A stretch of 64,000 nucleotides of DNA from Bacteroidia bacterium (GTDB lineage Bacteria; Bacteroidota; Bacteroidia; UKL13-3), in the NCBI GenBank assembly GCA_021740845.1, contig JAIOYZ010000006.1, positions 62,001 to 126,000 on the forward strand, in the 5' to 3' direction. The notes beneath the pieces are model-generated. The model did no database searches. It had not been told where the DNA came from and saw only the letters and a list, made by a program, of their open reading frames with translations. Both the position numbers and the translations under genes were made by a program. The stretch's first letter is position 1. The number at the start of each line of letters is the position of its first letter. Positions 3,063-19,093 of the stretch are shown one piece after another.

Positions 3063-3971
3063 GTGGAAGTAAAAACTATACAAACAAATGAGACTATTGC
3101 CGAGGTGAGCAGCCTACGAGCAAAAGTGAGCGACTATAACCAATTGGTTAAGTTTAGACTTACTTTTCTTGTGGTATTTTCTTCGGTAGTAACTTATTTA
3201 ACTGCAAGTGCAGGAGCTATCAATTGGTTTGAGGTTGCGATGTTGGCTCTGGGTGGCTTTTTGGTTACAGGTGCTTCCAACGGAATAAACCAAGTTATTG
3301 AAAAAGATTTCGATAAGTTAATGCTGCGCACCGCAAACCGCCCAGTTGCAACAAATAGAATGAGTGTTACAGAAGCCTCATTGCTAAGTATGGCGATGGG
3401 AATTAGTGGTGTAATTATAATTGCTACATTTCTAAACCCACTCTGTGGTTGGTTGGCACTAGGAGCATTAATGAGTTATGCATTTGTTTATACTCCATTA
3501 AAAAGAATTTCACCAATTTCAGTTTTTGTAGGAGCTTTCCCTGGTGCAATCCCTACTATGCTTGGCTGGGTTGCTTTTACAGGAAAAATAGATATGCCTG
3601 CAATCATTTTATTTGGTGTTCAATTCTTTTGGCAATTCCCACACTTCTGGAGCATTGCTTGGATATTAGATGATGACTATAAAAGAGCAGGATTTAAAAT
3701 GTTACCTTCTACACCTGGTAGAGACAAAGGAACTGCATTTCAAACCTTAACATTTAGTTTGGCATTGATACCAATAGGAATGGTACCTTATCAATATGGC
3801 GTTAGTGGAATTATTTCTGCAGTAATTGCTGCTTTAGGTGGCCTAATGCTAAGCTATTATTCTTGGAAATTATTTAAGTCGTGTGAAATTGCAGATGCAA
3901 AGAAATTAATGTTTGCCTCATTCGTTTATTTACCCTTGGTTCAATTGGCTTATTTATTTGATAAAATATAA
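3063..3971 (+). CDS. ctaB: Protoheme IX farnesyltransferase (heme O synthase)
   Basis: UbiA-family prenyltransferase of the inner membrane that attaches a farnesyl group to heme b, giving heme O for CtaA next door. The prenyl-diphosphate/Mg-binding motif N76-x3-E-x-D-x-D and the following RTANRP (89-94) are intact, and the 302-residue length with about nine membrane helices is normal. The start is GTG at 3063, three bases after the ctaA stop. The next gene begins two bases after the stop, so translation is probably coupled. Confidence 0.95.
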   Translation: MEVKTIQTNETIAEVSSLRAKVSDYNQLVKFRLTFLVVFSSVVTYLTASAGAINWFEVAMLALGGFLVTGASNGINQVIEKDFDKLMLRTANRPVATNRMSVTEASLLSMAMGISGVIIIATFLNPLCGWLALGALMSYAFVYTPLKRISPISVFVGAFPGAIPTMLGWVAFTGKIDMPAIILFGVQFFWQFPHFWSIAWILDDDYKRAGFKMLPSTPGRDKGTAFQTLTFSLALIPIGMVPYQYGVSGIISAVIAALGGLMLSYYSWKLFKSCEIADAKKLMFASFVYLPLVQLAYLFDKI

Positions 3972-3973
3972 AA

Positions 3974-4555
3974 ATGGTTAGCAATACAGTACTACAAAAA
4001 GAAGAGCAAAATTATGTAATCAACCCAAAGAAATTTGTGTTGTGGTTACTAATAGTTGCTAGTGTTATGCTATTCGCTGGCTTTACCAGTGCCTATATTG
4101 TAAGAAGGGGTGAGGGAAATTGGGAGATTTTTAATTTGCCAACTTTTTTTGCTATAAATACTGTTCTTATTATTCTGTCTTCTATTTTCTTGCAATTGTC
4201 TTATATGGCTGCAAAAAAAGACAAATTAAGTCAGGTAAAATCGTTCTTACTAGTGAGTTTTTTAATTGGTGTTGGCTTTGTTTTTGGGCAATTTTTTGCT
4301 TGGAATCAATTGGTAGCCGACAACGTGTTTTTCTCTTTTTCAAACCCATCTAACGCATTTGTGTACGTGATATCAGGAGTACATTTATTCCACGTTTTGG
4401 GAGGTTTGGTTTTTATGCTACTCATGGTAGTAGCATCGTTCAGAAATAAGATTCATAAATTGTCTTTATTATATCTCAATATGTGTTTAACCTATTGGCA
4501 CTTTATTGGAATTCTATGGATTTACCTTTACTTGTTTTTATACCTATACAGATAA
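3974..4555 (+). CDS. Cytochrome c oxidase subunit III, first copy (short form)
   Basis: A 193-residue membrane protein with five predicted helices. The C-terminal signatures of subunit III are present: SGVHLFHVLGG and YWHFIGILWIYL. It lacks the long periplasmic loop of the second copy. The second subunit III gene starts 33 bases downstream. Two adjacent subunit III genes are common in Bacteroidota oxidase operons; whether both are stoichiometric subunits cannot be told from sequence. Confidence 0.9.
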   Translation: MVSNTVLQKEEQNYVINPKKFVLWLLIVASVMLFAGFTSAYIVRRGEGNWEIFNLPTFFAINTVLIILSSIFLQLSYMAAKKDKLSQVKSFLLVSFLIGVGFVFGQFFAWNQLVADNVFFSFSNPSNAFVYVISGVHLFHVLGGLVFMLLMVVASFRNKIHKLSLLYLNMCLTYWHFIGILWIYLYLFLYLYR

Positions 4556-4588
4556 AATTAATTAACCTAAACAAAGCATAATTCAAAA

Positions 4589-5344
4589 ATGGCTACAAAC
4601 ACTTTAAGTACTGAGAAAAAGTTTACCTGGGGCGGCGGCAAATCCCCGTTTAGTGTAAGCTATGGAAAGTTAATGATGTGGATTTTCTTACTTTCCGATG
4701 CCTTTACGTTCTCGTCTCTGTTAATCGCTTATGGATTTATCCGTTACAGTTTTCAATCTCCAATTGTAAACACGCTAATAAAACCATTTGATCATTTATC
4801 GCACGAGTTTGTTCAAGAGATGGTTGAAAAAACCAAGTATTTTGTTCAAGACCATTGGCCATCCCCAGAATTGGTATTTAACCATTTCCCTTTTATCCAT
4901 GGCGTTCATTTGCCTTTGTTCTTTGTAAGTTTAATGACATTCATTTTGATCTTTAGTTCTGTAACTATGGTATTGGCGGTAGAAGCTGGTCATAGAATGG
5001 CAAAAGATGAGGTGTCTAAATATATGTTGTTAACCATTATTGGTGGTGCTGCTTTCTTAGGCTGCCAAGCTTGGGAGTGGACAACCTTTATTGGAGAAGG
5101 AGCAAGATTATATGGTAACCCTTATGGACCGAGGTCATTTGCTGCCCTATTCTTTATTGTAACAGGTTTCCATGGCTTCCACGTATTTTCGGGGGTAGTG
5201 CTTAACGTTATAATTTATATTAATGTTTTAGCTGGTACTTACCAAAAAAGAGGTCATTATGAAATGGTTGAAAAAGTTGGTTTATACTGGCACTTTGTAG
5301 ACCTTGTTTGGGTATTTGTATTTACCTTTTTCTACCTTATCTAA
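4589..5344 (+). CDS. coxC: Cytochrome c oxidase subunit III, second copy (long form)
   Basis: A 251-residue heme-copper oxidase subunit III with FHGFHVFSGV and YWHFVDLVWVFVF near the C-terminus, the usual signatures of helices VI and VII. Compared with its 193-residue neighbour it has an insertion of roughly 60 residues after the first helix (rich in His, Phe and Pro). It ends 30 bases before the subunit IV gene and is clearly part of the same operon. Confidence 0.93.
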   Translation: MATNTLSTEKKFTWGGGKSPFSVSYGKLMMWIFLLSDAFTFSSLLIAYGFIRYSFQSPIVNTLIKPFDHLSHEFVQEMVEKTKYFVQDHWPSPELVFNHFPFIHGVHLPLFFVSLMTFILIFSSVTMVLAVEAGHRMAKDEVSKYMLLTIIGGAAFLGCQAWEWTTFIGEGARLYGNPYGPRSFAALFFIVTGFHGFHVFSGVVLNVIIYINVLAGTYQKRGHYEMVEKVGLYWHFVDLVWVFVFTFFYLI

Positions 5345-5374
5345 TTTAATTAATCCTAAAAATAACTTATTATA

Positions 5375-5710
5375 ATGGAACACATAGAAGAACATTTTGA
5401 GCATACAGAAACTCCAGCTGACATGAAAAGTCAGATTTGGAAAACATTTTGGATTTTGCTTGGCTTCACTGTAGTAGATATTTTCATTTACTTCATGCTT
5501 TTGAGCACCCACGCAATGTGGAAGAATTGGGTATTTATTATTTTGGGAATTGTAAAAGCATACTATATTGTTGGTGTATTTATGCACATGAAGTTTGAAC
5601 GCAAAACCCTTATGTATACCATAATTGTACCGATGGTTTTTGTGGTATTTTTTGTTACACTTATGGTTATAGAAGGCGACTTTACAAACCTTCTTAGATG
5701 GGGTAAATAA
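5375..5710 (+). CDS. Cytochrome c oxidase subunit IV (prokaryotic COX4 type)
   Basis: A 111-residue protein with an acidic, His-containing N-terminus followed by three hydrophobic helices. The conserved FMHMKFE turn sits between helices 2 and 3, as in the bacterial CoxD/CtaF-like subunit IV family. Its place directly after subunit III supports the call. Its final TAA overlaps the ATG of the SCO1 gene by one base, so the two are probably translated together. Confidence 0.88.
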   Translation: MEHIEEHFEHTETPADMKSQIWKTFWILLGFTVVDIFIYFMLLSTHAMWKNWVFIILGIVKAYYIVGVFMHMKFERKTLMYTIIVPMVFVVFFVTLMVIEGDFTNLLRWGK

Positions 5711-6360
5711 TGAAGCGAAAAGGCTTTTGGATAGCAACCGGACTACTTGTAGTTCCGGTTGCTATTTTTTATATACTTAGTGCAGGGACACATCATTTTA
5801 AATCTTTGCCTATTTATGGGGAACGCATTCCCCCAAATGGAAACGATATTAAAGATACTATCTTTTATCAAATTCCAGATTACTTTGTAAAGGATCAAAG
5901 TGGTGTTACCATTTCTTCCCAAAGTTTCCAAAACAGTATTTATGTGGCTAATTTTTTCTTTGCAAGTTGCAAGGATGTTTGTCCTACCATGAACAGACGT
6001 TTGGCCCAGGTTTATGATAAATACAGAGAGTTTGCTGAAGTTCAATTTATCTCTTTTACGGTAGACCCCAAAAACGATACCTTAGAAGTACTTGAAGCTT
6101 ATGCCAAGAAATATAATGCTGATCCTAAAATTTGGCATTTTGGACGCGCAGAAAAAGAAGCCTTATTACAAATTGGCCAAGGTTTTTTATTACCAGTTTC
6201 TATAGAAGATAAAACAATTGACCATAGTCAGCAGTTTATTTTGGTAGATAAAGAAAAACATATTCGCGGCATTTATGATAGTTTTAGTGATGTAGAAATA
6301 AAACGCTTAGAAGAAGATATCAAAGTATTATTATATGAGTATCACCACCCAGGAAAGTAA
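5710..6360 (+). CDS. SCO1/SenC copper chaperone for the CuA site
   Basis: Membrane-anchored, thioredoxin-fold periplasmic protein that delivers copper to, or reduces, the CuA centre of subunit II. An N-terminal helix (residues 6-23) anchors it. The copper ligands are all present: Cys87 and Cys91 in CKDVCP, and His172 in DHSQQF. The length of 216 residues is typical. It overlaps the next gene by 26 bases and sits where assembly factors are normally found in oxidase operons. Confidence 0.95.
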   Translation: MKRKGFWIATGLLVVPVAIFYILSAGTHHFKSLPIYGERIPPNGNDIKDTIFYQIPDYFVKDQSGVTISSQSFQNSIYVANFFFASCKDVCPTMNRRLAQVYDKYREFAEVQFISFTVDPKNDTLEVLEAYAKKYNADPKIWHFGRAEKEALLQIGQGFLLPVSIEDKTIDHSQQFILVDKEKHIRGIYDSFSDVEIKRLEEDIKVLLYEYHHPGK

Positions 6361-6886
6361 AGACAAAAAGTTTTTTAATTTTGCCATTGGCATTTCGGTA
6401 GTTGTATTTATTGCCGTTGTTGTTCTGAACCGAAAAGTATTGCCTAGTCCAGAAGTATTGCCCTCTTGGACTTATTATTTACCCATGTTAAATGCCATTA
6501 TTAATGGTACTTGTAGCATTTTATTATTGCTATCGCTTTACTTTATTAAGCAAAAAAATATTAATGCCCATAAGAATATTAACCTTACTGCATTTGGATT
6601 GAGTAGTCTCTTTTTAATAAGTTATGTTTTATTTCATTGGATGGCTCCAGAAACAAAATATCCAGAAGGAGATTCTTTTAGACCGATTTACCTTAGTATA
6701 TTAATTTCACATATTATTTTGGCTGCAATTGTACTTCCTTTAGTACTGTTAAGCTTTTATAGAGGAATTCAAATGCAGGTAGAACTACACAAAAAAATTG
6801 TCCGTTTTGCCTATCCAATTTGGTTGTATGTTACCGTAACTGGTGTTGTTGTTTACTTAATGATTAGCCCTTTTTACCCTCATTAG
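6335..6886 (+). CDS. DUF420 membrane protein (YozB/CtaM-like oxidase assembly factor)
   Basis: A 183-residue protein with about five membrane helices and the DUF420 pattern: an Asn-rich segment in helix 2 (LNAIINGT), conserved His residues in AHKNIN, ISHIILA and LHKKI, and a C-terminal YPIWLYVTVTGVVVYLM. The Staphylococcus aureus relative CtaM is needed for an aa3-type terminal oxidase, so a maturation role is likely here by family and by context. The gene overlaps the SCO1 gene by 26 bases, and the chosen ATG is the first in frame. Confidence 0.85.
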   Translation: MSITTQESKDKKFFNFAIGISVVVFIAVVVLNRKVLPSPEVLPSWTYYLPMLNAIINGTCSILLLLSLYFIKQKNINAHKNINLTAFGLSSLFLISYVLFHWMAPETKYPEGDSFRPIYLSILISHIILAAIVLPLVLLSFYRGIQMQVELHKKIVRFAYPIWLYVTVTGVVVYLMISPFYPH

Positions 6887-6912
6887 TGTTTCACAAAGCT
6901 TATCTTTACCAA

Positions 6913-7182
6913 ATGAAAAATTTGAAGGTTTTTGCCGTGTTAGTATGGTTATTTCTTTGTCCTCTTGCCCAAACTTCTGTTTATAGCCAATGTGCTATGT
7001 GCAAGAGTAATGTAGAAACGGCAAGAGAAGGAGGTGGAACCATGGTTGGCAATACCTTAAATAATGGAATAATGTATTTATTGGTTTTACCTTACGCCAT
7101 TGCAGGAGTTTTTGCTTTTATATATTATAAAAAATACAAAGAAAAACAGGCTGCAAATACTAACTCAACTACTCAATCTTAA
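6913..7182 (+). CDS. Small exported CxxC membrane protein of the cox operon
   Basis: An 89-residue protein of unknown function. It has a signal peptide (about residues 1-26), then CAMC (Cys27, Cys30) at the start of the mature region, a short Gly/Thr/Asn-rich linker and one C-terminal helix (about 53-72) followed by a Lys-rich tail. A CxxC facing the periplasm beside SCO1 and CtaM-like genes suggests a part in copper or thiol chemistry during oxidase assembly, but that is inference. A GTG at 6886 is possible; ATG 6913 is preferred because it gives a standard signal peptide. Confidence 0.75.
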   Translation: MKNLKVFAVLVWLFLCPLAQTSVYSQCAMCKSNVETAREGGGTMVGNTLNNGIMYLLVLPYAIAGVFAFIYYKKYKEKQAANTNSTTQS

Positions 7183-7193
7183 CTCAAACAATT

Positions 7194-7592
7194 ATGTGCG
7201 ATAAATACGAACCTAACAAAGGGTTGTCCATAGCCAAAGGAAAATGTCCTCAATGCCAAAGCGGCAAAATGTTTAATTATCCTTTTTATAATCTTAAAAG
7301 ATTTATGGATATGGATGCTACCTGTAAAGTTTGTGGTTTGAAATACGAAATTGAACCTGGCTTTTTTTGGGGAGCTATGTATGTAAGTTATGCGTTAACT
7401 GTTGGGCTTATGCTAGTTTTAGGTGGTTTCATACTTTGGGTAAGCAATGGCAAAGCAGATTTCTGGGGTTATGTTATTCCTATTATTAGTGCTTTATTGG
7501 CCTCTTCTCCCCTCACCTACCGATATGCAAGAGTGTTAATGCTCTATTTCTTTTCACCAATTCGGTTCAACCCGGATATGGCAAAAAAATAA
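7194..7592 (+). CDS. DUF983 zinc-ribbon membrane protein
   Basis: A 132-residue protein with a zinc ribbon at the N-terminus (Cys18, Cys21, Cys44, Cys47), then the conserved EPGFFWGAMYVSYA and two membrane helices. This matches DUF983, a family of unknown function that often sits in oxidase operons of Bacteroidota and alphaproteobacteria. It is 11 bases downstream of the CxxC protein and 5 bases upstream of the DUF393 gene, so it belongs to the same transcript. Confidence 0.85.
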   Translation: MCDKYEPNKGLSIAKGKCPQCQSGKMFNYPFYNLKRFMDMDATCKVCGLKYEIEPGFFWGAMYVSYALTVGLMLVLGGFILWVSNGKADFWGYVIPIISALLASSPLTYRYARVLMLYFFSPIRFNPDMAKK

Positions 7593-7597
7593 CCCAA

Positions 7598-7993
7598 TTG
7601 AATCCGCTACTTTTATATGATGGCAATTGTGCCTTGTGTAATTGGGCAGTTAAATTGGTATTGAGTTTTGATAAAAAACAAATCTTTCGTTTTGCTTCTT
7701 TACAATCTCAAACTGGTATAAAAACAATTCAAAAGTTTCGGGTTGAACCAAAGCTAGACTCAATAATTGTCTTGGTTCAAAACGAACTATTTACTGAAGC
7801 GGAAGCTGTATTTAAAATTGCTAAAATTCTCGGATTCCCATTAAACATAATACTTATTGGGAATTTATTGCCTGCAAAAACAAGCAAATTTATTTACCAA
7901 TGGATTGCTAAAAGACGGTATACGTTTTTTGGCAAATACGATTCTTGCCCCATCCCTCCAGCTAAAAATAAAAATCAATTTATTACAGATTAA
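7598..7993 (+). CDS. DUF393 (DCC-family) thiol-disulfide oxidoreductase-like protein
   Basis: A 131-residue protein with the family motif YDGNCALCN (Cys11, Cys14) at its very start and the typical Arg/Phe segment FRFASLQS. DCC proteins have a thioredoxin-like fold with a putative redox CxxC; substrates are unknown. No ATG precedes the motif in frame, so translation must start at TTG 7598, five bases after the DUF983 stop. It is the last gene of the oxidase group; the TonB receptor follows 38 bases later. Confidence 0.85.
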   Translation: MNPLLLYDGNCALCNWAVKLVLSFDKKQIFRFASLQSQTGIKTIQKFRVEPKLDSIIVLVQNELFTEAEAVFKIAKILGFPLNIILIGNLLPAKTSKFIYQWIAKRRYTFFGKYDSCPIPPAKNKNQFITD

Positions 7994-17270: not shown

Positions 17271-17310
17271 AACAAAAAGCCAGAGAGAATAATTGTTCGC
17301 TCTGGCTTTA
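17271..17310 (-). terminator. Rho-independent terminator of the small membrane-protein operon
   Basis: Arms AAAGCCAGAG (17276-17285) and CTCTGGCTTT (17300-17309) form a 10-bp stem with a 14-base loop. Read leftwards the stem is followed by TTTTTGTTTT, a proper U tract. It lies 6 bases past the stop of the gene ending at 17316 and ends that transcript before the helicase gene. Confidence 0.8.
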
Positions 17311-17315
17311 CTATT

Positions 17316-17672
17316 TTAGTTTTCTTTTGATTTCTTTTTGCCTCTAAAAAACAAATAGAGGTTCAAGAAAAGCATTACACCTAAATAAATTGAGAACCAT
17401 CCTATTTTATAACTTAAGACTTCCAACAAGTTTCTAGTATCAGGAATATCATAATCGATGCGGAGTTGGAGTAAGGCATAGCCAATATTTAGTAAGTAAA
17501 AACCTACTTTAAAAAGATGGTTGGTTGCATCGGCAATTTCTTCTCTTCCTTTAAAAATATCTATCATAAAAATACGAGCATTTTTGAACAAGGAATTAGA
17601 AACATAAATGGTTAACAAGAGGGTAATTGGCAAATAAATGCCATACGCTAAAACTACAAAATTGGTTTCCAT
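17316..17672 (-). CDS. Small membrane protein, tandem paralogue B
   Basis: A 118-residue protein of unknown function with three hydrophobic helices and a Lys-rich C-terminus (GKKKSKEN). It is visibly homologous to the gene 17 bases upstream: both share IYLPIT in helix 1, a hydrophilic stretch of about 30 residues, GxYLLNxGYA in helix 2 and a FLNLY/YFNLY segment in helix 3. I recognise no named family. It is the last gene of a set headed by a GbsR/MarR-type regulator and is followed by a clear terminator. Confidence 0.8.
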   Translation of the reverse strand: METNFVVLAYGIYLPITLLLTIYVSNSLFKNARIFMIDIFKGREEIADATNHLFKVGFYLLNIGYALLQLRIDYDIPDTRNLLEVLSYKIGWFSIYLGVMLFLNLYLFFRGKKKSKEN

Positions 17673-17689
17673 ACGAGTTGTATTAAGAG

Positions 17690-18055
17690 TTAATTAATTT
17701 GAAAAATTTGTTGAATGTTTTTTGAGAATTTGGCAAATGCATAGAGGTTAAAGTAATGGAGCAATCCTAAACCTATAAGCAAAACGCCCAATCGAAAAGC
17801 AATGGATTCGAAAGCCATGAGCCATGAATCTACACTGCCAAAAAAATTTATTGAAATTACCGCATAGCCTAAATTGAGCAGGTAATAACCAATTAATAAG
17901 AATTTATTTACGCTTTGAACCAAATGAGTTTGCTGATGAAAGGCCCGCATCAAATAAACTTCACCCTTTTGGTTCAAATCTTTACCAATACCGATGGTGA
18001 TGTAAAAGGTAATGGGCAAATAAATGAGATAAGAAACTATATTGAAGGATTCCAT
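17690..18055 (-). CDS. Small membrane protein, tandem paralogue A
   Basis: A 121-residue three-helix membrane protein, paralogous to its downstream neighbour (shared IYLPIT, GYYLLNLGYA, FNLYAF). No catalytic or metal-binding residues stand out. An operator-like dyad (18105-18122), a possible -7 box (TATGTTTT on the minus strand, 18087-18094) and a full GGTTYRAACC site (18076-18085) lie in the 74 bases upstream, so this pair may have its own promoter apart from gbsR. Confidence 0.8.
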   Translation of the reverse strand: MESFNIVSYLIYLPITFYITIGIGKDLNQKGEVYLMRAFHQQTHLVQSVNKFLLIGYYLLNLGYAVISINFFGSVDSWLMAFESIAFRLGVLLIGLGLLHYFNLYAFAKFSKNIQQIFQIN

Positions 18056-18075
18056 TTCTATTGTAATTTAATTTT

Positions 18076-18085
18076 GGTTCAAACC
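18076..18085. repeat. Iterated dyad GGTTCAAACC, intergenic copy 1
   Basis: Full copy with T-rich left and A-rich right flanks (TTTGGTTCAAACCGAA), 21 bases upstream of the start of paralogue A. It sits just downstream of that gene's possible -7 box, so if a protein binds it, it could affect this promoter. Confidence 0.8.
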
Positions 18086-18104
18086 GAAAACATACTTATT
18101 ATAT

Positions 18105-18122
18105 TTTCAAGAATTATTGAAA
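18105..18122. promoter_or_regulatory. Operator-like dyad upstream of the paralogue pair
   Basis: TTTCAAGA-AT-TATTGAAA: the same 8-2-8 layout as the dyad upstream of the regulator gene, with one mismatch in the left arm. It lies 50-67 bases upstream of the ATG at 18055; the other copy lies 38-67 bases upstream of its gene. Inferred to bind the GbsR/MarR-type regulator. Confidence 0.55.
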
Positions 18123-18129
18123 CATAAGG

Positions 18130-18507
18130 TCAATAAAAAAAGGCTAATTCCTTTGCTTCTTGAAAATTTAGGTATACATAAAACACAGCCGTGATAGGCG
18201 AAAGAAATAACAAAGCAAATAAGCCAAAAAAGGTTAAAGGCGGAATTAAACCAATAAGGAAAACAAGTAAAAAATAGGCAAATATTTTCCTCTCTCTACT
18301 TTGCTTATACCCCGCCAAAAACCAATTAATAAAGAAGCTGGCTAATTGAAAAGAGCCAATTATATAGTAGAAATAGAAAAAATCATGTGACCATTTAAAT
18401 TGGCCTTCACTAATTAGTTGAACCAAGAAAGCAAAAACCACAACGCCCAATGCAATCAGTTGAATCCAGGCATCTGCTTGTTTAAAATTTCTGAATTTCG
18501 TTTTCAT
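18130..18507 (-). CDS. Small four-helix membrane protein of unknown function
   Basis: A 125-residue protein with about four hydrophobic helices, an Arg/Lys-rich N-terminus (MKTKFRNFKQ) and a basic cytoplasmic loop (KQSRERK) between helices 2 and 3. I recognise no family. Its start is 4 bases after the stop of the GbsR/MarR-type regulator, so it is certainly in that transcript. It is not obviously homologous to the two paralogues downstream. Confidence 0.78.
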   Translation of the reverse strand: MKTKFRNFKQADAWIQLIALGVVVFAFLVQLISEGQFKWSHDFFYFYYIIGSFQLASFFINWFLAGYKQSRERKIFAYFLLVFLIGLIPPLTFFGLFALLFLSPITAVFYVYLNFQEAKELAFFY

Positions 18508-18511
18508 AAAA

Positions 18512-19018
18512 TTATTTTAAGAGTTTTAATAAAGTACTAAAGAACCAACTTTCGTCGGCTTTCAACATTACCTCCACCGACTTATCCATTTTGCCTACAA
18601 AATCGCCTAAATTGGCAACGGTTTTACTAAAGGCCGCATGCTCCGGATTTTCTTTGCTACCTTCAAATTCGTTTAATTGACCCAAGACTTTAAGTACAGG
18701 TTCAATTTCTCTTCTTTTACGTTCTTTGGCAATTCTTCTGGCAATTTCCCAGATGTCTTTTTCGGCCACAAAATACTCCTTACGATCGCCAGGAACCAAT
18801 TCTTTGCTCACCAAGGTCCAGTTAATTAAGTCGCGAAGATTCATGTTTGCATTGCCGCGCGAAATGCTTAAATCTTCCATTACATCTTCGGTAGTAAGTG
18901 GTTTTGGAGAAATAAGCAACAAGGCGTGAACCTGTGCCATACTTCTGTTTATACCCCATTCGCTACCTAAAGTTCCCCAGGTTTGAATAAATTGTTTTTT
19001 TGCTTCCTCAAATTTCAT
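18512..19018 (-). CDS. GbsR/MarR-family transcriptional regulator
   Basis: A 168-residue DNA-binding protein. A winged helix-turn-helix (about residues 25-85, with TTEDVMEDLSISRGNANMN as the recognition region and a wing at VPGDRKEYF) is followed by a helical C-terminal part for dimerisation. The GbsR subgroup includes repressors of osmoprotectant genes, though in Bacteroidota these regulators sit in varied contexts. Upstream lie a perfect Bacteroidota -7 box and a long palindrome, so autoregulation is likely. It heads the set of three small membrane protein genes. Confidence 0.88.
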   Translation of the reverse strand: MKFEEAKKQFIQTWGTLGSEWGINRSMAQVHALLLISPKPLTTEDVMEDLSISRGNANMNLRDLINWTLVSKELVPGDRKEYFVAEKDIWEIARRIAKERKRREIEPVLKVLGQLNEFEGSKENPEHAAFSKTVANLGDFVGKMDKSVEVMLKADESWFFSTLLKLLK

Positions 19019-19037: not shown

Positions 19038-19068
19038 CAAATGTATAAACACTTTTTAAACTTTCAAT
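19038..19068 (-). promoter_or_regulatory. Promoter of the GbsR-type regulator gene
   Basis: On the minus strand TACATTTG (19038-19045) is an exact match to the Bacteroidota -7 consensus TAnnTTTG. An ATTG (3 of 4 to TTTG) lies 19 bases further upstream, inside the palindrome, so a repressor bound there would cover the -33 element. Confidence 0.55.
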
Positions 19069-19093
19069 ATTTATTGAAAGTTTAATTTCAATA
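19056..19093. promoter_or_regulatory. Long palindromic operator plus extra half-site
   Basis: A perfect inverted repeat with 14-bp arms (19056-19069 and 19072-19085) around a TT centre; the core is TTTCAATA-TT-TATTGAAA. A third half-site TTTCAATA follows at 19086-19093. It overlaps the presumed -33 region of the regulator gene and has a one-mismatch sister site at 18105-18122. Confidence 0.7.

Follow-up and report, generated by a model that had tools for sequence, protein, structure and literature searches.

Matching palindromes at gbsR and M1 suggest that a GbsR-type regulator controls an undescribed pair of small membrane proteins

The GbsR proteins were surveyed by Ronzheimer and colleagues in 2018, who grouped 179 of them (PMC6207618). 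In that survey, the gene neighbourhood of 73 of the 179 proteins, primarily from Euryarchaeota and Bacteroidetes, gives no deducible role, and the Bacteroidetes neighbourhoods are said to give 'no consistent picture' (PMC6207618). The survey describes the aromatic cage of the inducer site as absent outside the osmostress group (PMC6207618). As for mode of action in B. subtilis, a second report assigns promoter occlusion at the -35 region to OpcR and a roadblock to GbsR (PMC7396694).

The locus considered here lies in a 64-kb stretch of DNA, the whole of which was analysed and is referred to as the window. A first-pass annotation of this stretch had pointed out three small membrane-protein ORFs beside a regulator gene, and all three are present where it placed them, each on the minus strand; its span (17316-18507) excludes the regulator gene and operator 1. 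In transcription order, the minus-strand set reads gbsR, TM4, M1, M2, and then an ORF that by eye resembles a DEAD-box helicase. The features are as follows.

Operator 1 (predicted), 19059..19082, no strand assigned: AACTTTCAATATTTATTGAAAGTT, PWM score 34.1, the locus being in the PWM training set.
-7 element, 19038..19045, minus strand: TACATTTG, 19 nt after the operator-1 TTG, by sequence reading.
gbsR, 18512..19018, minus strand: GbsR/MarR-type regulator (putative repressor) of 168 aa, from the ORF.
TM4, 18130..18507, minus strand: small membrane protein of 125 aa between GbsR and M1, from the ORF.
Operator 2 (predicted), 18102..18125, no strand assigned: TATTTTCAAGAATTATTGAAACAT, PWM score 20.6, 47 bp upstream of M1.
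M1, 17690..18055, minus strand: membrane protein of 121 aa, from ORF, alignment, model, and tree.
M2, 17316..17672, minus strand: membrane protein of 118 aa and the more conserved paralogue, from ORF, alignment, model, and tree.
Possible terminator after M2, 17276..17309, minus strand: arms AAAGCCAGAG/CTCTGGCTTT with a T-rich tail after them, from sequence reading only; absent from the terminator scan, in which loops were limited to 8 nt.

M1, M2, and TM4 all fall below every Pfam and NCBIfam cut-off, as expected from the annotation's statement that none matches a family, and no cut-off was reached when M2 was searched together with 12 of its relatives. Identity with YdiK was considered and rejected: the matches of 9 of 13 M2 proteins to that model (best E 0.0012) were taken as composition, and the window M2 scores 12.5 bits against a cut-off of 305. 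Between E 0.001 and 0.1, some M2 proteins match models of YdiK or of Na+/H+ antiporter subunit B, with the scores shown far below cut-off. A defence role for the set was likewise rejected, since none of the membrane proteins matched a PADLOC defence model; the regulator gave only a weak Csa3 match (E 0.0077). One profile scan of viral contigs yielded no relative. The conserved regulator-membrane gene order, which the annotation had proposed to look for in a neighbourhood survey, is borne out by the loci described below. Thus, neither a characterised family nor an absence of conserved order, the two outcomes it had named as speaking against the set, was encountered. In the open-licence literature searched, no earlier description came to light.

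Aligned over 117 columns, M1 and M2 share 28% identity (E 2e-14), and the profiles of the two families match each other at E 3.2e-30; together with the tree of M proteins discussed below, these values support the suggested origin by duplication. Among the motifs reported as shared, IYLPIT and YLLN(I/L)GYA are exact, but FNLY is not, the third shared motif being NLY (YFNLY in M1, FLNLY in M2). Similarly, the description of a three-helix pair suits the AlphaFold2 model of M2, which has three long helices (10-sequence alignment, mean pLDDT 79.2), but the model of M1 has a short C-terminal helix in addition to its three long ones (10-sequence alignment, mean pLDDT 82.6). By a simple hydropathy scan, M1 has three flagged stretches, and M2 and TM4 have two each. 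The third protein is rightly placed between the pair and the regulator, but its reported four helices come from sequence reading and hydropathy flags two. The M1 model found no informative match among solved structures (best Foldseek E 0.77), and its best VIA-align 2 result (Z 10.9) is to a designed helical bundle and is uninformative. Tyr, Thr, and Asn are invariant in the M alignments, as is a His in M1, where His100 and Asn103 are invariant across 13 aligned relatives. The M2 alignment has no invariant His, and in neither alignment is Glu or Asp among the invariant columns; Glu84 of M2, located at helix 3, is nearly invariant. The helix 3 motif is G-x-M-H-x-x-N in single-copy relatives such as that of locus L016 and a Streptomyces protein (see below), x-H-Y-x-N in M1, and M-x-x-x-N in M2.

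Relatives of M1 were found in 18 of 98 near genomes, and 17 of these 18 have two or more matches. With the M2 profile, matches were obtained in 49 of the 395 class genomes (one of them, in G096, a weak fragment with E 5.6e-4), 35 of these having two or more, and in 25 of 395 genomes of a phylum-wide draw, one of these outside the class. Extra M2-profile matches in G005 and G008 (E about 9e-5) were taken as chance membrane similarity and set aside; that in G008 (L123), the one annotated of the two, is a full ABC protein on its annotation. In a tree of 73 M proteins, from which rows with X and M matches of 260 aa or more were omitted, M1 stands apart from the rest (97/98), the M2 proteins of pairs are grouped (100/98), and 12 single-copy forms are placed between the M1 and M2 groups. 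Fourteen rows are labelled single, two of these (L091 and L128) only because the gene caller missed the partner, and owing to these mislabelled rows the labels recover neither M1 nor M2 as a single group. The tree is limited by few columns and long branches, for which the tool issued a warning, and the M1 rows tend toward the longer branches. The simplest reading is that M1 and M2 would derive from one old duplication followed by joint retention. In one genome (G600, L121 5997-6206), M2 is seemingly broken by stops and a frame change, with M1, GbsR, and both operators retained.

The sole plasmid record matching M comes from Streptomyces cynarae (L203 4989-5833, NZ_CP106794.1), where a single-copy M is followed by a DUF393/DCC1-like gene (PF04134, E 4.2e-12). 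This M shares 47% identity with M2 over 83 residues (E 8e-12) and is also detected by the M2 HMM when that locus alone is searched. The locus has a G+C content of 68%, as do its surroundings, which makes a stray contig from Bacteroidota improbable.

The window regulator matches PDB 1ku9 (MJ223) over residues 3-127 (E 2.7e-17). Its matches to Pfam MarR_2 (E 9.8e-6, 26.1 bits, cut-off 27) and to the NCBIfam CudC model (E 4e-12, 46.3 bits, cut-off 218) are both below cut-off, and judged by its sequence it is classed as a CudC relative, not a CudC equivalog. In line with membership in the GbsR family (MarR superfamily), the protein has a winged-helix MarR/GbsR sequence related to MJ223, and a palindromic site stands, in silico, at its own promoter. 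Its C-terminal stretch is conserved, with Asp155, Trp158, and Lys168 invariant in the alignment. GbsR relatives (E 1e-15 or better) are present in 128 of 395 genomes of the class, namely in 47 of the 49 with M versus 81 of the 346 without M. None of the annotated GbsR neighbours is a choline or betaine transport or synthesis gene, many neighbours being unannotated.

At all 34 loci that define the motif, a 24-bp near-perfect palindrome with the consensus AACTTTCAATAATTATTGAAAGTT stands before GbsR. A PWM built from these 34 GbsR-upstream sites was used to scan 45 M loci (518,642 bases, score 16 or more; L123, whose match is the ABC protein, is included). The scan found 34 sites directly before M genes, in 33 of the 45 loci; because these M-side sites are absent from the training set, they constitute an independent test. 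Eight of nine further sites immediately precede a gene for a TM4-like protein, another small membrane protein, or DCC1; the ninth (L098) lies in the gap after GbsR. A Markov-1 control of 1.56 Mb, three times as large, contained no site at a score of 16 or more. In the 64-kb window, operator 1 is the sole place within 3 mismatches, operator 2 is an imperfect palindrome match, and the next best PWM site scores 9.2. The matching palindromes at gbsR and M1 thus suggest that GbsR controls the undescribed pair.

Not every locus follows this arrangement. Twelve of the 45 have no site of 16 or more directly before M: six have it before the preceding gene (L091, L102, L106, L110, L120, L122), L098 has it in the gap after GbsR, L033 and L107 have weaker sites only (13.5 and 14.5), L119 is without a second site, and L118 and L123 are without any. 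Of the 11 M loci without a nearby GbsR, nine carry the palindrome at M. Eight of these nine genomes were searched and seven encode GbsR elsewhere (G069, G141, G265, G354, G374, G390, G411), G303 having none. In G028, the pair is present with no GbsR match and no site at the M locus (best score -1.1), which fits joint loss.

The pattern alone is insufficient to define the regulon, for which position and matrix score are needed. For instance, a loose pattern occurs in 109 of 295 class genomes versus about 49 for a reversed control, and among 20 loci fetched by pattern, eight are without GbsR, some of these scoring high. GbsR is encoded elsewhere in two of the eight genomes (G276, L165; G196, L180), and the other six have no GbsR match. 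Palindromes at L173 5450 (G064, score 29.8) and L176 5414 (G090, score 26.7) are in genomes without a GbsR match, and could be due either to chance or to another regulator with a similar site. In the window's genome, the pattern with one mismatch gave four places versus five for the control. The core pattern gave four places in the same 4.09 Mb versus none for the control: two at this locus, and two inside ORFs with scores of 0.5 and 10.8. As only two of these sites score as real, the predicted regulon in this genome is this operon alone.

Another sequence, TTTGGTTYRAACCRAA, lies near M1 and gbsR and was considered as the GbsR operator. It was rejected because, with one mismatch allowed, 13 copies are present in the 64 kb versus 0.05 expected; it also occurs in same-genus loci, is not a constant element of GbsR promoters in other loci, and was set aside as a separate repeat. 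The palindromic repeat TTYGGTTYRAACCRAA has, with one mismatch allowed, 13 copies per 64 kb (0.05 expected), located at 7737, 9617, 12122, 15225, 18073, 19143, 19186, 29891, 40991, 45456, 52252, 57165, and 59198, and is also found in the same-genus loci L089 and L123. It is a candidate REP-like or regulatory repeat of the genus.

The consensus of the -7 element of Bacteroidota promoters is TAnnTTTG. An exact TAnnTTTG is found 18-21 nt past the operator-1 TTG at 29 of 34 loci, for a background of 0.0005 per position, and by this spacing operator 1 overlaps the -33 region, its half-site nearer gbsR supplying the -33 TTG of the predicted gbsR promoter. On the M side, an exact -7 element at that distance accompanies four of 34 sites, all without adjacent GbsR (L105, L115, L126, L034). 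Beside GbsR, the spacing of the two operators is 558-661 bp at 44 of 51 loci, 700 bp in one, and 910-998 bp in six; these six, which include the window (957 bp), have a small membrane gene between GbsR and operator 2. From this placement, site 1 would probably act by promoter occlusion and site 2 by a roadblock or loop.

With the threshold set at 14, operator 1 was found in 59 and operator 2 in 54 of 63 GbsR loci (4 and 9 being without). By the basis on which loci were chosen, the respective numbers are 31 and 30 of the 31 chosen for M, 12 and 9 of the 12 chosen for the operator, and 16 and 15 of the 20 chosen for GbsR. At GbsR loci without M, the first gene past operator 2 encodes a DCC1-like protein, an SDR (TIGR01777), a fatty acid desaturase, a CMAS/UbiE-like methyltransferase, DUF2071, a polyprenyl synthetase (one locus), or a small membrane protein. 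The family names were mostly tested on one member each; for the TIGR01777 SDR, the tested member (L106) scores 252.2 bits, above the cut-off of 207.35. Across the phylum, the repressor-operator pair precedes genes for membrane-anchored thiol-redox (DCC1-like), SDR, SRPBCC, DUF2071, methyltransferase, and desaturase proteins, and once for a polyprenyl synthetase. Within 4 kb, the modelled families, including M and TM4, are always downstream of GbsR on the same strand (171 of 171 matches, none upstream).

The neighbour-family HMMs were built from the loci of the first survey, and a fair test is therefore provided by the 32 later GbsR loci, none chosen for M, which comprise 12 of the 20 operator-pattern loci and 20 GbsR loci picked by hand (8 of these 20 because the genome's M genes lie elsewhere). 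At least one listed family (DCC1, SDR, SRPBCC, DUF2071, methyltransferase, desaturase, polyprenyl synthetase, or the membrane-SRPBCC fusion c28) is downstream in 25 of the 32 (11 of 12 and 14 of 20). The methyltransferase and polyprenyl synthetase models consist of one protein each, from L171 and L172, and L172 counts only by self-match, as the model was built from its own protein. Fusions of an N-terminal hydrophobic domain (four stretches) to a C-terminal SRPBCC-like domain are seen at L194 7354-8259 and L116 6487-7401; such fusions lie downstream of GbsR in 5 of 63 loci, the SRPBCC match of L116 being just below cut-off.

TM4 also has relatives at other GbsR loci. A five-sequence TM4 profile aligned to a profile of 11 small membrane proteins from such loci with an hhalign probability of 99.1% (E 1.2e-18), and by this sequence comparison the TM4-like proteins of several loci are assigned to one family with the window TM4. 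TM4-like and M2 profiles showed no relation (hhalign 0.7%). Elsewhere in the window, positions 3063-7993 hold a cluster of cytochrome oxidase type (CtaB-like, Cox3-like, and SCO-like by eye) that ends in a single-domain DCC1-like protein (7598-7993, PF04134, E 2.3e-20); the PWM scan found no GbsR operator in this cluster.

Taken together, these observations make it fairly probable that GbsR is a repressor of its own gene and of a membrane or lipid-modification set, represented here by TM4 and M1-M2. As a GbsR-type MarR-family repressor, it would bind the 24-bp palindrome twice, in its own -33 region and just upstream of M1, and would thereby keep down both its own gene and the small membrane operon. 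M1 and M2, apparently the duplication products of a single-copy ancestor and presumably co-expressed, would most probably assemble into an inner-membrane hetero-oligomer. The proteins would be made once GbsR is freed by an inducer, probably one that is hydrophobic or derived from the membrane, and the module would most likely serve the upkeep of membrane lipid or a lipid-soluble cofactor under stress, with M1-M2 as its membrane subunits. This role is favoured because the genes that share the switch are, by family name, of lipid, isoprenoid, or redox type or are membrane-linked. Caution is warranted because the predicted switch in the window's genome governs GbsR, TM4, M1, and M2 only, with no lipid-type genes. 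The evidence concerns control and not chemistry: what the computation shows is the order of the genes, the duplication, the conserved palindrome with its placement, and the common targets, whereas DNA binding by this GbsR, repression, the hetero-oligomer, the class of inducer, and the lipid role are inferred. Of the sensor, small transporter, and envelope-stress module offered by the first-pass annotation, the last comes nearest, given the genes of lipid and membrane type found with the same operator in other genomes. A more specific version is possible but doubtful: M1-M2 might be the membrane core of a redox or lipid-maintenance complex with DCC1-like thiol oxidoreductases and TIGR01777 SDRs, under the two-operator GbsR switch. 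Its homo-oligomeric ancestor, with Met-His-x-x-Asn in helix 3, might have been duplicated to give a hetero-oligomer, the His being retained in M1 and lost from M2, and the switch would extend across Bacteroidota and the M-DCC1 association as far as Streptomyces.

Other explanations of the pair were also considered. MarR repressors of efflux genes sense the efflux substrate, and a paralogous membrane pair adjoins a MarR-type repressor with a conserved palindrome here, this operon being the only target found in the window's genome. M1-M2 might then export a hydrophobic or cationic compound as a small hetero-oligomer, with GbsR sensing that substrate. This is rather unlikely, since no transporter model cut-off is reached by M1 or M2 and the same operator stands before enzyme genes in relatives. 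The SMR-like heteromer that had been suggested is disfavoured in particular, as each protein has three long helices and no invariant acid, although Glu84 of M2 is nearly invariant. Alternatively, M1-M2 could carry a quinone or heme as lipid-soluble redox cofactor and exchange electrons with the DCC1-like thiol oxidoreductase, which occurs in the gene run of M at 6 of 31 M loci and beside M on the Streptomyces plasmid. The invariant Tyr, Thr, and Asn, with His in M1, would suit such a role, as would the GbsR locus with a polyprenyl synthetase and those with UbiE/CMAS-like methyltransferases. However, DCC1 is missing from the run at 25 of the 31 loci and from the predicted regulon of the window, M2 has no invariant His, and the M1 model has no structural match, which leaves electron exchange of this kind unlikely.

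It is very unlikely that M1-M2 serve as membrane sensor or anti-repressor, binding GbsR or letting it go and so linking the state of the membrane to the operon. The pairing of GbsR with M is conserved and the C-terminal stretch of GbsR (Asp155, Trp158, Lys168) could meet a membrane partner, but 81 of the 128 GbsR genomes have no M2 match and loci among these keep the operator, so M is not needed for the retention of GbsR. Action of the palindrome in RNA, as a hairpin before the start codon instead of a GbsR operator, is highly improbable: at the M genes, 19 of 34 sites are only 5-19 bp away from the called start that follows and could fold, but the same motif covers the -33 region at GbsR, which is untranscribed from that promoter. 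Repression by GbsR from both palindromes is retained as the preferred reading. With a searchable operator, the Bacteroidota GbsR becomes a testable regulon in which unnamed membrane groups (M1/M2 and TM4-like) are tied to the regulator and to DCC1-like, TIGR01777, SRPBCC, and DUF2071 genes.

In paired SMR transporters such as EbrAB and YkkCD, two paralogous membrane proteins of some 110-120 residues are encoded side by side, and each has four helices, the first with a conserved Glu. M1-M2 resemble these pairs in being adjacent, paralogous, and of similar size. In contrast to the four helices per SMR subunit, the M1 and M2 models (10 sequences each) have three long ones, and instead of the helix-1 Glu the M1 and M2 alignments have no invariant Glu or Asp. 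The SMR family model was absent from the matches of the window proteins, taken to E 10, and from those of 13 M2 proteins, taken to E 0.1, HMMER filters dropping most matches above E 0.1. Light and singlet-oxygen regulons contain photolyase, TIGR01777, and CFA synthase, and their enzyme families overlap with those found here (TIGR01777, CFA-like methyltransferase, DCC1-like). They have photolyase, whereas none is close to the GbsR/M locus in 40 genomes; a photolyase or light linkage was rejected on this basis, as 33 of the 40 searched genomes encode photolyase/cryptochrome and the nearest is about 18 kb away (G280).

The closest described systems are the Bacillus regulators GbsR, OpuAR, and OpcR, with the CudC model, which like the window GbsR are MJ223-related and whose operators are, as here, A/T-rich inverted repeats (PMC6207618, PMC7396694). 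The -35 block by OpcR and the roadblock by GbsR in Bacillus are the two types of site suggested for this locus, but the Bacillus family controls choline/betaine uptake and synthesis (PMC6207618, PMC7396694), and no such gene is among the annotated neighbours here. CydE, a GbsR-type repressor of membrane-protein genes (cydAB), is similar to the role proposed here, although its target is cytochrome bd oxidase and M1 and M2 have no CydA/B match in Pfam or NCBIfam (PMC6207618). For the GbsR proteins of Bacteroidetes, the operator and its target set now offer a consistent picture.
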